Below, piece after piece: positions 1 to 9,410 of a stretch of DNA of 64,000 bases. The translations under genes and the position numbers were made by a program. Below the pieces are notes generated by a model, which saw only the letters and a program-made list of their open reading frames with translations, was not told where the DNA came from and searched no databases. Each line of letters starts with the position of its first letter. Position 1 is the first letter of the stretch. Source of the stretch: Nephromyces sp. MM_2019 (taxonomy: Eukaryota > Apicomplexa > Aconoidasida > Nephromycida); contig JADHZB010000413.1 in the NCBI GenBank assembly GCA_015657535.1, positions 1 to 64,000 on the forward strand. The letters are read 5' to 3'.

Positions 1-3000
1 ATGGATAATAATAATGAAGGAGGAGTAGCGGCATTTAGATTCTTACAAAGGGCCCAACATATTGGTAAAGTCGTACTGAAGGTTCCATCATTTTGGGATA
101 GGGACGATATGAACGAGCCAGGTACGTATGTAGTCACTGGTGGAACTGGTGGCCTTGGTCTAGTATTCACAAAGTGGCTAATCGAAGAAGGAGTTAAGGA
201 CATAGTGTTAGTTTCAAGGAAAGGATTCATACCCAATGAACTAAGCTCAAATAGTACATGGCAATGGATCGAAGCCTCAACAGCAAATATCAAATACATC
301 TCATGTGATGTATCAAACTACACCGAAGTTACAAAATTATTTAGAACTATAACTACATGTGGAATGGCAAAAATAGAAGGCATATTCCATGCAGCTGGAG
401 TTACAGCAGACTGTTCAATTATGAATATGAATGAATCTTCAATTGAATCGGTTTATAGATCAAAAGTATATGGTGCATGGAATTTACATAATGCTTGTAA
501 TGAATTTGGTTTAAACAAAGATATGAAAGTGTTCATGATGTTTTCATCTATTTCTGCACTTTTGGGTAATTTTGGGCAAGCAAATTATGCTGCAGCAAAT
601 GCTTGTTTGGATTCTCTAGTTGAATGGAGGCGCTCACAAGGTCTATGTGGTCAAAGTATTCAGTGGGGTCCATGGCTTGAACAAGGCATGGCAACTTCTT
701 TGAAAGATCAATTATCAAAGGTAGGGATGGTTGGTATAGCTAATGATCTAGGCCTACGAGTGATGAATGATGTACTGAATTCTAGTACAGTGACTACAAT
801 AGGCTGCCAAACGCTTAAATGGAAAAAATTTTTCAAAAGATATATTGAAATCCCTCCTTTCTATTCTGAGGTGTTTCATTCATTTGAGGCTGTCAAGACA
901 AGTATCTCCCTATCTCAAATGAATTCAGATGAAGTGATAGCACTGATTATAGAAGTAGCACAAAATGTTTCTGGCTCTACAGAAGTTCCATCATCTGATA
1001 CTAAGCTTATGGACCTTGGTTTTGATTCACTTGGAGCTGTAGAATTCCGTAACTCCATTGATGAACTTACATCTGTTAAGTTGCCTCAAAGTTTATTATT
1101 TGAAAATATATCTGTAAAAGGAATAGCAGAATACCTAATGTCAACTGTATCGAGCCAGGATGATATAAATAAAACTCGAACATCAAAATCCGAAGATGTT
1201 TTGACACCGTATTTCGAATCGTCCATAGACCAGTGGCTTATGTCTGTTTTAGAACCTTCAGAGAGGTATACACTGTATATAGAACAATTCAATAGGTTTT
1301 ATGAATCACTAGATAAAATGGCTCTTGAAGATGATGTATTAGATTGTATGGCTCGCCTGGATATTGATGATAACCAAGATTATGATAGGATATATGTAGC
1401 CTGGAATGAGCTAATTGATTCTATCCAGAAAAATAATGAAGAATTAAAGAATAACAATTATGACATAGAACTTCAAAAGATTAAACTTATGATATCATCA
1501 AAGCCTAAAACGAATGTTGTTCATCCTTTACAAGATGTAGAAATGCTTAAAAACCAGTTAGATTTCGATCTGACATCCATTAAACCTATTGCGAAAACTG
1601 TTCAAAAGGTTTTATTGACAGGTGTGACTGGATTTGTAGGACGTGTTCAGCTAGCAACTCTACTAAAAAGAAATAACAACAAAAATTTTAAGGTTGTATG
1701 CCTGGTTCGTGCTAAATCAAAACAGCATGCACAGAGTAGGATCGCAGATGCATGCACTGAAGCTGATTGTTGGGATCCCACTTATTTTGAACAAGTTATT
1801 GCTCTTCCAGGTGACTTTACTCAGCTAAACTTCGGATTAGAGGAAGAAGAGTTTAATGAACTTTGCAAAACTGTGGACATGGTTTATCATACTGGTGGTG
1901 ATGTTAATTTATTAAATAGCTATACACGCCTTAGGGAAACTAATACTCTTAGTATACAGCAAGTTATAAAGATGTGCACAACATATAAACTGAAACCATT
2001 ACATTTTGTTTCAACACTTGGGCAATTTCCCGAATTTTTCGCTCTCTTCAATGGGGAGTATAAGAATCATAATATAGTTGAAATGTGCCATCCTAGTATA
2101 GATGATATGAAAAGGACATTTCCACCTACCAGGCAGGGTTATCCTTGGAGTAAATGGGCTGCTGAGCAAGTTTTATTCGAAGCTAAAAATAAAGGTTTAC
2201 CTGTGTTCATATACAGACTGCCTAATACATATATAGCATGTGATACTGGATATACAAATATAAGTGATTATGCAACTGCCTTAATGATCTCATCAATGGA
2301 GGAGGGTTGTTATCCAAAGAGTGGATCTTCAGCTCCTTTCACACCAGTGGATACTATTTGTGAAATATTGGTAATTTTATAATTTTACCAAAATGTACGT
2401 TCATTTACAAGTTTTTGAATGTCTTCTAGGTACGTATGTCCTTTAAAGATGATTGTAAACACTGGGTGTTCAATCTATTTGATCCTAGGATAGTCACAAA
2501 GTAAGATGAAAGGCAAATTTTAGTTGTATTTATATAGTATTGAATGAATTAAATTATCCGAATTATCATATCTTCATATCTTTGCAATTCAGTGATGAAA
2601 TAGAGTCTTGGAGTAAAGAGTTAGCAATAACTTATAAGGCAGTTAACTTTAATCACTTTTCTGATTGTGTGAGAAAGAGAGGACCTTCCAGTGCAATTTT
2701 TAAATTCCTTCCATTAATGAAATATTGGTATAAATACTGGTTTGACTGTGATGAGCGACAAGAAGATTTTCCTATCAGAAATCAAAATATATTTGATGAA
2801 TTACCTGATATAAAATGGCCAGACCTCAAAACGATATTCAAGAATTCTATAACTTATTGGTAATCTTTGTGGATAATTTTCCCTGCATAAATTTTCATCA
2901 AATGATCTATTGTGTATATTTCAGTATCAAAAACAAGTTTTTCAATAAGGAATCGGCCTCAATAGTTTTGGATCCCTATCTTGCCAAAAAGGAAGCAGAA

Positions 3001-4295
3001 GAAATAACAGCTCTGAAACCAGTATCTGATGAAATGTTCTTCATGAAGCCCATCGAAATCATCACAAATTCTTTTAAAAATGAATGTGATCACTCGTTCG
3101 CTGGAAAATTGGCAATATTTAGGACATTTAGGCAGTATATGATGAATATGTTGTATATGGACAATATGAAACAGATGATTCCTGCTATTGAGACCCAGGA
3201 AGTTGTTGCTCCAATTTTTATTGTTGGTTTGAATCGTAGTGGAACTTCGTTTTTGCAGCAGATTCTATCAACTGATGATAATTTCAGAGTAACAAAATAC
3301 TGTGAAATGATTGCTCCATATGGGCAAGATGGTAGCTATAGACCTTTTGATCTACCAAATTGTGAAGAATCCTGGAAAGACGTGAGATTTTCAGTTTTTT
3401 GAGAAAAAAGATTAAAATTTCTAATAAATTATTTGTTATTTTTCAATAGGATCCCAGAATTTCATATGCCCAAGATGTTTTGAAAGCACAGCTAGGATCC
3501 TCTGTGGAATGGGAAGGTATCCATAAACAATCTGCAGATTTAGCTGAAGAAGAATTTATAATACTGGAGCACTGTGGAAGATCTTATTCAATCTGTGCGG
3601 GTTTTATGGTACCACAGTATCGGGATTGGATTTTAAAAGATAATTGTAAGGAACTCAAGTCAGGCTATAAATTTCACAAAAGATTTTTACAGCATCTTCA
3701 GTGGCAAAGAAAAGCTAATAGATGGCTACTTAAAATGCCCTTTCATTTATTTGCCTTAGATGCGCTGTTTGAAACCTACCCTGAAGCTTCTATAATATTT
3801 ATGCATCGGTTAGTTAATATATATAATCTAATTTTTAGCTTTATTTAAAATGTCTTGTTCTAATTCTTTAGTGACCCAAAAAGGACTATTGGTAGTTGGT
3901 GCAGTCTTGTCAAACATGCACAACAAAACCTTTTGAGTACATACGATCCTAAAATGATCGGACAGGTTGAATTAGAAGCAATGTCATCAATGATGAAGTA
4001 TGCAATTGAATTTAGGAGTGAAAATGTGCATTTAAAGAACAAATTTTTGGATATACAATATGATAATCTGATTAATGACCCTCTGAGTGTTGTAAAAAAT
4101 ATTTATAACAAATTAGGTATTAAACTGAGTTTAAAGCAGCTCCAAAAATTCAAGACCTTCTTATCAAACAACGAGAAAGAAAGGAATAAAATTGTAAAGC
4201 ACAGTTATAATCTTGAAGATTTTGGGCTCGATAACCAAAAGGTTGAAGTCGCATTCAAAGATTATTATGATTCTGCTCTTTTCAAATTTATGTAA
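1..4295 (+). CDS. Type I polyketide synthase C-terminal part: KR-ACP-thioester reductase-sulfotransferase (5'-partial)
   Basis: This is the end of a modular PKS. The first residues (GVAAFRFLQRAQHIGKVVL) look like the end of an enoyl reductase domain, so the gene starts upstream and the ATG at base 1 is probably internal. A ketoreductase follows (about 41-270; GGTGGLG, Ser183/Ser185, Tyr196), then an acyl carrier protein (GFDSLGAVE, Ser343 as phosphopantetheine site), then an NAD-binding thioester reductase (TGVTGFVG about 540-547; YxxxK at Tyr714/Lys718). After the reductase the frame runs on through introns 2371-2429, 2501-2523, 2860-2924, 3382-3449 and 3809-3871 into a PAPS sulfotransferase with a 5'-phosphosulfate loop (FIVGLNRSGTSFLQ) and a 3'-phosphate motif (MHRDPKRTIGSWCSL). 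All phases agree. A reductase normally releases the product as aldehyde or alcohol; sulfation of that product is inference. Two adjacent genes cannot be fully excluded. Confidence 0.85.
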
Positions 4296-4607: not shown

Positions 4608-5263
4608 CTACCAAAATTTTATAGATGAACTGAGTGGTCTGTAATAGTGAGTATTTTGCCACCATTTCTTCTTTTGTGGCCCATATCCTTTAACTTCATG
4701 ATATCTGAATATTAAATGGTTTAGGGTTTTAGTGTGTATATAAGGAAAATACTTCAAATATTACCTATATGGCCTATAAGTATCGAAAGATAAGTTCTTT
4801 TTGCGTGTTGCCCAATAACCATGCCTATGATACCATTTCCATTTATTTGGTTGCCAGGTCCCTAATGAAAAATCGTTCATAAAAAATATCACTTGAAGAT
4901 GATGATTAAAAAGTTAGATACAATCAGGGAGAATGAGTTGATCATCAAGAAAAATTTCTCATACATACTTCGAGACCTAAATTTATGTAACATGGTTCTT
5001 TTTCGAAAACAAATTTTTTATTATTATCTTTGCTTACTTTTCCTGCCTGCCCACTTCGGCCTTGGTATTATAAAGTCTAGGCCATTTCCTATGATATCTC
5101 TTAGCCTTCGCCAAGAGGATTCGAAATACTTTTCAAATATAGAAGCAGGGGATTCTCTTAGTAAAATATCATTATAATTCTTAGTCAAAGGGCCTGTTAG
5201 TAAAGCCCTAGTAATGTTTAGTGGAGATAGGGGAAGAATCGATACTTTATAGCACAAGTTCAT
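4608..5263 (-). CDS. bL34-like mitochondrial ribosomal protein (candidate)
   Basis: Three exons read on the minus strand (5263-5038, 4861-4765, 4704-4608) with matching phases give 139 residues. The middle reads KRTWQPNKWKWYHRHGYWAT, which aligns with the bL34 signature KRTxQPSxxKRKRxHGFRxR. It is followed by a basic, aromatic C-terminal extension (KGYGPQKKKWW) not present in bacterial L34. The N-terminal part has no acidic start and could be a mitochondrial or apicoplast presequence. The family role is a small structural protein of the large ribosomal subunit. The match spans one exon junction, which supports the splice. The start Met is the first in the open frame; an upstream exon is possible. 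Alternative: an unrelated basic organellar protein. Confidence 0.6.
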
Positions 5264-7340: not shown

Positions 7341-9410
7341 ATGTGGAAAATTTTCCCTGGCATAAGATTTGGAAAAACTCCCCATTCAAAAATGTGAGTA
7401 GATTATCGACGTAACGTAGTTTTGCTTTTTTCAAATTATTGATATACTTGTAACAAATCAGGAACAATTTCAGTAATGCAATTAAAAGATTTTCTAATTC
7501 TTCTGAAGGTCGAACATATCTCCCAATTGGAGATTTCTGTCCAATTAATAATACTAAGAAACTAACAGCAAAACAAATATTAGCAAAAGAGCTTAGCAAT
7601 AAAGAATTATTTGGACCAAATGTCGTAAGTAATTACTCACTAAGTAATCAGGGTTAATAGTCATAGTGTATTGAATGCTTTTTGTTTAACAGAAATGATT
7701 CTCAATCAAAAATTTGATTGTTAATAGTACATAAAATCTTATCCGAAACAGTTATGGACAGAAGGTCATCCTATCAATGTTCCTACATTTATAAGACAGT
7801 GTTCGGCAACAGGTCAATGGTCAATATTTGCAATTGAGAAATTTTCTCAAAAGCCGATGATGTACAAAATATGTGACCAGAATCAGAAAATGCTAACTTC
7901 CCAGAGAATTGAATGGGATGAGAATTGCCCCTTTTGCCCAGGCAATGAAGATAGGTAATAAAAATATACCATCAGAATTATCTATGTCAAGCATTATTAG
8001 TCACATAATTTTTTCAAGAATTGATGAAGCTGAATAATTCTTAAACAGCATTAGCTGCTCTTAATTGCACTTAGTGGTGCTATTTAATATTCAAATTCAA
8101 TCTCTATTATTTGGATTTGAAAATGTTGATATAATTTCTCGAAAATAAGGACTACTTTTATTTTTTGATTTCCCAGATGCCCAGATTCTCTTTATCAAGT
8201 TTCCACGTCTGATGGAAATTGGAAAGTACGAGCTCTGCCTAACAAATATTCTTTTCTTAGAAAATCCAAAAATGTCATATGTGGGTTCTGGGGTAAGAAC
8301 CTTCAGGTGTCAGGAAATGGCGTACAGGAGGTTAGCCATAAAGTATTTGATTACCATGAAAATACATAATTTAAGACATTTATTTATAATTAATAGAGTT
8401 GCAGACTCTTTAGATTTTGCTAATAATGCTTGCGAGGTATAAAACTCGTGATTCCTCTTTTTTATAAAATGTTTCAAATAGGTTATAGTGCTTAGTCCTC
8501 GACACAATACGTGTCCTGCGCTAATGCAAGAAAAAGAACTACACACCGCAATCGAAACTTTGTATTTAAGAGGGAAATTAGCTTCCCAAGATCCAAATAT
8601 CTTGTATGTTACCTTGTTTCAAAACCATGGTATCAAATCAGGTGGTATGTTGAATGTGTTTATAGGAATAATTATTAAATTAAGTATAGAAAGATCATAA
8701 GATCTTAAAATAGCTATAGTGTGATGCAAATATCCCGTCATATTCTTAACCCTTCACGCAAAATTTTCAAAAGGTTCACTAGAGCATCCACATTTTCAAG
8801 TTGTTGGTTTACCCATTGTACCAACAAGTGTATTACGAAGAGTCGAACATGCCGAGATCTATTATCTCCAACATGATGAGTGTGTCTTTTGTCGCGCCAT
8901 CTTAGATGAGCAAAATGATTTAGAAGGTGATGGTTCTCGGATTGTTTATGAGAATGAAGAGTTCATTTCGTTTATACCCTATGCAGCTACTAGGTAAATC
9001 TAAAAGTGTATCTTATCTAATCCTATAATTTTCGAAAATATTTTGCTAGAGCATACCAAATATGGATATTACCTAAAAGGCACTCTCCAGATTTCTTCGA
9101 GATAACAGAACAGGAACTTCAGAGCTTAACACAAAGCTTACATAAATGTCTAAAGATGTATTATTATAATCTAAATGATCCTGATTACAACATAGTTATT
9201 CGCACTTGTCCAACTAGTTACGGGTCAGCTAAAGACAAGAAGTACGAGCTATTTACATCATCCAATCGAAAGTGGGAACGATCATACCACTGGTATCTTG
9301 AAATCTCCCCACATACTTCGGAATGGGGCGGTATTAGCTGTTTTGATATGGTGGTGCACAAGATGTTACCTGAAAGCATGGCGAAAGTGCTTAGGGCACC
9401 CATAGTATGA
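7341..9410 (+). CDS. GalT-superfamily nucleotidyltransferase (galactose-1-phosphate uridylyltransferase or ADP-glucose phosphorylase)
   Basis: Seven exons (7341-7393, 7474-7624, 7752-7954, 8177-8330, 8482-8644, 8774-8993, 9050-9410) add up to exactly 434 codons plus stop. Hallmarks are a first CxxC (CPFC, Cys127/Cys130), SPRH (His195), the active-site motif SLEHPHFQ (His246-x-His248-x-Gln250, His248 the expected nucleophile), a second CxxC (CVFC, Cys278/Cys281) and a late YHWYLEISP segment. Two CxxC metal sites are typical of the plant At5g18200-type ADP-glucose phosphorylase and of archaeal GalTs. The family moves a nucleotidyl group between sugar phosphates through a histidine intermediate. 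Substrate choice cannot be decided from these motifs. The first exon is short and its start is the only ATG that joins in phase. Confidence 0.88.

Follow-up and report, generated by a model that had tools for sequence, protein, structure and literature searches.

A reductase–sulfotransferase ending in a fatty acid synthase-like gene from a Nephromyces assembly and its predicted alkyl sulfate product

We analysed a 64,000-nucleotide stretch of DNA (the window, positions 1–64000 of contig JADHZB010000413.1, here C224) from the Nephromyces sp. MM_2019 assembly GCA_015657535.1, which comprises 48.3 Mb in 1127 contigs. Its first 4,295 nucleotides hold the 3′ part of a gene related to type I fatty acid synthases (FAS) and polyketide synthases (PKS), in which a thioester reductase (TR) is followed, in one predicted frame, by a sulfotransferase (ST) that would use 3′-phosphoadenosine-5′-phosphosulfate (PAPS). 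As a whole, the gene probably encodes the end of an apicomplexan type I FAS, the TR of which would release the chain as an alcohol and the ST of which would sulfate that alcohol to an alkyl sulfate. The direct basis for this explanation is the domain order, the single frame with conserved introns, the intact motifs, the conservation of both domains and the neighbourhood of the bacterial counterparts, from which we infer that the release takes four electrons, that the ST acts on the alcohol so formed, what the product is and any role at the surface or wall.

Splicing of five short GT-AG introns, with phases 0, 2, 2, 0 and 2 in that order, joins six exons into a single 1315-aa open frame with TAA as its stop (Table 1). 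The gene is truncated at its 5′ end, because window position 1 is the first base of the contig. Pfam recognized a ketoreductase (KR), an acyl carrier protein (ACP), the TR and the ST in this order, every domain above its own cut-off, and no thioesterase was detected in the 1315-aa model (Pfam scan, E≤0.001), the stop codon following the ST. The TR motifs are intact (TGVTGFVG, Tyr714 and Lys718), as are both PAPS motifs of the ST (GLNRSGTS and HRDP...S), the 5′ and 3′ features of the PAPS-dependent PF13469 family by which its activity is predicted. An earlier note on this DNA, made from the letters alone, had proposed a frame continuous from TR to ST across phase-matched introns and had pointed to the TR motifs and to both cofactor motifs of the ST; all are present, and the frame is unbroken here as it is in the second copy described next.

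Only two PF07993 matches were found in the assembly (E≤0.001), one on C224 and one on contig C616, and all five PF13469 matches (E≤0.001) lie within the same two genes. The C616 gene encodes 1313 aa without an internal stop and has the domain order, the six exons and the five intron positions and phases of the window gene, to which it is 44–68% identical by segment. In a separate comparison by domain, identity between the two is 59% in the TR, 60% in the ST and 30% in the linker between ACP and TR. On a tree of the TR-ST region the window gene adjoins Cardiosporidium cionae (94/88) and C616 stands next to them, the trio being joined at 98/91.

A protein search with residues 535–1315 as query, against database proteins of about 720–2300 aa, returned 65 proteins, 43 of which carry both PF07993 and PF13469. 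Sixteen of the 43 (P0001–P0016) are of the protist type: eight named proteins (from Cardiosporidium, Eimeria acervulina, Eimeria maxima, Cyclospora, Gregarina and Chromera, and two from Vitrella), five EukProt open reading frames (ORFs) with transcript-style names that hold both domains in one frame (GHVS twice, GHVN, GHVR and GDKK), and three others (P0003, P0010 and P0013). In P0013, a metagenome protein, Phe replaces the catalytic Tyr of the reductase (GFPWSK). The remaining 22 comprised seven FAS-like proteins without a PF13469 call (six from Cryptosporidium and one partial from Vitrella) and 15 other reductase proteins; Toxoplasma proteins were not among the matches in this size range, which leaves out very long synthases. 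The TR-ST ending in one predicted frame was thus confirmed as real, and it stands beyond chance because C616 keeps its exons and phases, because the ST is conserved like the TR, and because the five EukProt ORFs hold both domains.

The Cardiosporidium, Gregarina, Eimeria and Cyclospora proteins share with the window the order ACP-TR-ST (with a KR as well in Gregarina) and 46–57% identity over TR-ST, and both PAPS motifs are intact in four of the five, the 3′ motif falling in a gap in E. maxima P0008. They differ from the window gene, the upstream architecture of which is not assembled, only in sequence divergence as far as seen, and they are labelled 'putative type I fatty acid synthase' (Cardiosporidium, Gregarina), 'Soraphen polyketide synthase A, related' or hypothetical (Eimeria) and uncharacterized (Cyclospora). 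With KR-ACP-TR-ST in one predicted polypeptide and its grouping with Cardiosporidium, the window gene probably belongs to this apicomplexan type. The view that known protist PKS and FAS end with the reductase finds no support here: PF07993 and PF13469 occur together in Cardiosporidium, Eimeria, Cyclospora, Gregarina, Vitrella and Chromera (with an eroded ST in Chromera), and Cryptosporidium FAS1 (CpFAS1) too extends past its reductase core. The search for the same order in other apicomplexan synthases, which the earlier note had proposed, thus found it in several genera, so the arrangement is not unique.

Nor is it undescribed, as that note had supposed. According to Della Sala et al. (PMC3908369, 2013), the swf operon of sponge symbionts and Poribacteria consists of swfA (KS-AT-DH-ER-KR-ACP), swfB (reductase and ST) and swfC (radical SAM), and two coccidian FAS are named as having the reductase and ST contiguous; both the TR-ST order and the outline of its chemistry had therefore been published by 2013. 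Among the PubMed Central matches listed for sulfotransferases with PKS, FAS or reductases and apicomplexans, which covered open papers only, this was the sole relevant prior description. The likeness to SwfB is a TR followed by a PF13469 ST, alignable over the full length and placed behind a KS-AT-DH-ER-KR-ACP synthase; the difference is that SwfB is a separate protein of about 830–850 aa, whereas the TR-ST of the window is fused to KR-ACP.

Bacterial-type or metagenome proteins made up the other 27 of the 43 (P0024–P0050), 25 of them free-standing at 829–854 aa, while P0049 and P0050 additionally carry KR and ER-type domains. They are 28–32% identical to the window protein with 97–99% of the query region aligned; in two bacterial proteins compared with it separately, TR and ST are 37–40% identical, and these stand well apart on the tree. 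A pattern scan of species genomes confirmed 124 TR-ST loci, 80 of which were kept (L006–L085), with genome titles naming Gemmatimonadetes, Proteobacteria, Acidobacteria, Latescibacterota, Nitrospira, Caldilineaceae, Saprospiraceae and others. Sixty-four kept loci had over 7 kb of upstream sequence; at 62 of them exactly one same-strand KS region is followed by KR-ACP and then TR-ST, L036 and L084 having no KS match there. The gap from the end of the KR-ACP match to TR-ST was below 1 kb in 41 of the 62, about 2–2.5 kb in 20 others and 3.8 kb in the last. The swf-type arrangement thus extends beyond sponge symbionts to genomes labelled with many bacterial groups.

The reduced, then sulfated long-chain product that the earlier note had proposed is still the best reading of this ending. 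The last ACP would carry an acyl chain that is (very) long and probably saturated; the NADPH-dependent TR would free this chain, most likely in two successive two-electron steps, as a primary alcohol; and the PF13469 ST would move sulfate from PAPS onto the alcohol hydroxyl, yielding an alkyl sulfate (a sulfated fatty alcohol). TR and ST would be an inherited pair, present as a separate SwfB behind a one-KS synthase in bacteria and, in apicomplexans and chromerids, as part of the synthase polypeptide itself. Several points weigh against this explanation. No member compared here has a known product, and the ST could act on a hydroxyl of the ACP-bound chain or on another acceptor. Reductases of PKS and nonribosomal peptide synthetases may end at the aldehyde or proceed to the alcohol, according to PMC13303079, and the choice is described by Zhu et al. 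as undecided even for CpFAS1. The rest of the gene is unjoined to C224, which leaves the length of the chain and the number of modules unfixed. Finally, the ST is less conserved than the TR in Vitrella (50 versus 57% identity to the window in P0007, 41 versus 56% in P0012) and Chromera (33 versus 49%).

Among the alternatives, it is unlikely that the ST sulfates a hydroxyl, such as the β-hydroxyl, on the ACP-bound chain in the manner of curacin, with the TR then freeing a sulfated aldehyde or alcohol. ST and ACP do share one predicted polypeptide, a KR belongs to the final module, and the curacin ST is described in PMC3908369 as working on a β-hydroxyacyl-ACP. Against this, an enoyl reductase (ER) apparently stands just before the KR, as judged from positions 16–90 and from P0005 and P0012, so that the β-carbon would be reduced; ER-type families (PF00107, PF08240) were found alongside KR in P0005, P0009, P0012 and P0014. 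Most of the bacterial TR-ST proteins (25 of 27) have no ACP in the same chain. The comparison with curacin-type PKS drawn in the earlier note proved weak as well: both place an ST near the megasynthase end, but the window gene has the reductase before the ST and, unlike curacin- or OLS-type endings, no thioesterase found, and its closest solved ST relatives are different, namely mycobacterial Stf1 and Stf9 (only 2zq5 and 2z6v matched at E≤1; a bacterial ST profile search was considered over the best 60 of 102 rows). Curacin-type alkene formation was set aside, no thioesterase having been found. The apparent ER end at the window start and a last module that is probably fully reducing are also the reasons why type I FAS is the better reading of the synthase than the PKS first proposed, of which the megasynthase ending stands.

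It is likewise improbable that the ST is inactive, or has a structural role only, in a synthase that just releases fatty aldehydes or alcohols. Indeed, none of the six Cryptosporidium sequences keeps the PAPS motifs, and those of Chromera P0016, Vitrella P0012 and P0014 are eroded, with the TR motifs remaining. In a motif table of 40 rows, with the 5′ PAPS motif scored by a fixed pattern, that motif was lost in 10 (these nine and Vitrella P0007, which is only partly changed) and HRxP in eight (the six Cryptosporidium, P0023 via a gap, together with Chromera and, via a gap, P0008); the TR motifs were kept in 6/6 Cryptosporidium and in Chromera. On the other side, both PAPS motifs are intact in the window, C616, Cardiosporidium, E. 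acervulina, Cyclospora, Gregarina and the GHVS and GHVN ORFs, and in this motif-intact set ST and TR, where measured, differ by no more than 5 points in their identity to the window. The values (ST/TR) are 65/63% for Cardiosporidium, 60/57% for E. acervulina, 54/59% for P0006 and 52/53% for Gregarina, so the ST appears about as conserved as the TR among apicomplexans, Cryptosporidium aside (P0018 17/56%, P0019 14/60%). As for the last alternative, a reductase-ended synthase followed by a separate sulfotransferase gene, retention of intron 2 would bring in an in-frame stop, as the earlier note had said (but at 2502–2504, not 2501–2503), yet it was set aside as very improbable given the five intron phases conserved in both copies, the ORFs with transcript-style names in which relatives combine the two domains, and the fused proteins in several genera.

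CpFAS1 shares with the window gene the ACP-TR and the linker behind the TR (TR 56–60%, linker 40–42% identity in P0018 and P0019) and differs from it in that the region matching the ST is 14–17% identical and lacks the PAPS motifs. According to Zhu et al., the reductase core of CpFAS1 is followed by a long C-terminal half, in which these authors found no motif. When a profile of this half from six Cryptosporidium sequences (P0018–P0023, from window residue 930 on) was compared with one built from 11 apicomplexan and Vitrella-type STs, 197 columns aligned collinearly and scored 38.2; none of 200 column shuffles exceeded 27.0, and the reversed profile reached 13.4. For this pair hhalign's own probability was 42% (P 0.00027). 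Against bacterial STs the score of 21.4 was not significant (200 column shuffles up to 22.1). Fold searches by two programs with a model of mean pLDDT 79.6, biased by the intact ST relatives in its alignment, gave only folds of the reductase or short-chain dehydrogenase/reductase type among the best 50 rows and no ST fold, so the decayed-ST reading is unconfirmed by structure. From its sequence, the C-terminal half of the CpFAS1 reductase is likely a decayed ST; this loss of motifs would explain the region in which no motif was found. We propose, tentatively and with less than even confidence, that the ancestral apicomplexan and chromerid FAS ended in a working bacterial-type TR-ST making long-chain alkyl sulfates, and that Cryptosporidium and, separately, Chromera-like lines kept the TR while the ST decayed, its remnant being this half of CpFAS1. 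Lineages would then differ in releasing a free fatty alcohol or an alkyl sulfate, and the motif loss in Cryptosporidium offers a natural comparison between them.

The metabolites of apicomplexan type I FAS and PKS are described as unknown, with a role in the oocyst wall as a published hypothesis, in PMC7036892; PMC3908369 states that long-chain alkyl sulfates would escape lipid analysis that relies, as usual, on saponification and methylation. No paper on oocysts appeared by title among the matches listed for hexacosanol, fatty alcohol and oocyst wall, and PubMed Central gave nothing helpful on PKS and Nephromyces. From the conserved TR-ST ending one can predict a specific class of product, namely long-chain alkyl sulfates, which to our knowledge have not been reported from apicomplexans or chromerids. 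The kind of enzyme was already known, in relatives and in bacterial operons, and its product chemistry would follow from its domains; what is new here is the lineage-specific loss of the ST, its TR-like conservation in apicomplexans and the resemblance of the CpFAS1 half to a decayed ST. The remaining interest lies in the predicted product and in this lineage-specific loss. Two other systems are more distant: the Emiliania huxleyi PKS is likewise a protist PKS bearing an ST domain but is set apart, by description only, in that the available text of PMC7073580 mentions no reductase-ST pair, and the terminal reductase domain of myxalamid MxaA (4u7w, 4w4t) is a reductase alone, from a PKS-NRPS pathway.

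Table 1. Features of the synthase gene at the start of the window.
Feature	Position	Strand	Remarks
3′ part of type I FAS/PKS-like gene, six exons, 5′ truncated	1..4295	+	open frame across five GT-AG introns
Exon 1	1..2370	+	
Probable last residues of enoyl reductase, FRFLQRAQHIGKVVLKVP	16..90	+	inferred; same stretch precedes KR in C616 and P0019
KR, aa 41–226	121..678	+	PF08659, E 2e-59
ACP, aa 317–379, LGFDSLG	949..1137	+	PF00550, E 4.9e-9
TR catalytic part, aa 539–789, Tyr714, Lys718	1615..2367	+	PF07993, E 4.2e-59; also found by genome search
Intron 1, phase 0	2371..2429	+	GT-AG; place and phase same in C616
Exon 2, reductase C-terminal part	2430..2500	+	
Intron 2, phase 2; TAA at 2502–2504 if retained	2501..2592	+	GT-AG; conserved in C616
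Exon 3, reductase end and linker to ST	2593..2859	+	aa 790–925, 48% identity to C616
Intron 3, phase 2	2860..2924	+	
Exon 4, start of ST domain	2925..3381	+	
ST domain, aa 999–1260, split by introns 4 and 5	3211..4127	+	PF13469, E 2.6e-34
Motif VGLNRSGTSFL	3223..3255	+	contains GLNRSGTS, 5′-PSB-like; which we take to be the PAPS 5′-phosphosulfate motif
Intron 4, phase 0	3382..3449	+	
Exon 5, ST core with LKMPFHL	3450..3808	+	68% identity to C616 over 120 aa
Motif MHRDPKRTIGSWCS, intron 5 inside Arg codon	3801..3905	+	HRDP...S, 3′-PB-like; presumably the PAPS 3′-phosphate motif
Intron 5, phase 2	3809..3871	+	
Exon 6, ST end and stop TAA	3872..4295	+	

Ketosynthase (KS) matches were found on four contigs, with most of a KS each on C9 and C739 and short pieces on C1028 and C715. 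Toward their contig ends, C9 and C739 carry the end of an AMP-binding domain (AL, below its cut-off), ACP, KS, acyltransferase (AT) and dehydratase (DH), with an ER start also called by Pfam on C9; both break off and are unlinked to C224 and C616. C9 may pair with C224, and C739 with C616, because their GC values match up (33.8% in the fetched C9 stretch and 39.8% in that of C739, 36.1% and 42% in the coding parts of C224 and C616). This layout would allow a one-module synthase, but the gap may hide further modules.

Three distinct rpoB genes (C1112:7536-8735, C318:4468-5667 and C1009:24436-25629; L086–L088) share 61–64% identity with one another over about 400 aa, lie in stretches of 11–19% GC and contain no stops only if TGA is taken to encode a residue; they appear to be apicoplast-type genes. 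At least three apicomplexan organisms are therefore probably mixed in the assembly, and since it looks mixed, the two FAS copies probably stem from two of them. Several Cardiosporidium-like apicomplexans living together, Nephromyces for example, would agree with this. C616 may instead be a simple paralogue of the window gene in one genome, against which stand the three rpoB genes and the conservation, between C224 and C616, of the gene behind the ST.

Pieces of that minus-strand gene or genes lie at about 4611–5146 of the window, with a counterpart at about 820–1640 of L001 (C616); the pieces are 79% (33 aa), 59% (34 aa) and 35% (40 aa) identical between the contigs. Also behind the FAS gene, a short open stretch at 8722–8994, which we take to be a possible galactose-1-phosphate uridylyltransferase-like gene, has relatives on C1102 (60%) and C25 (44%), which fits a mixed assembly.
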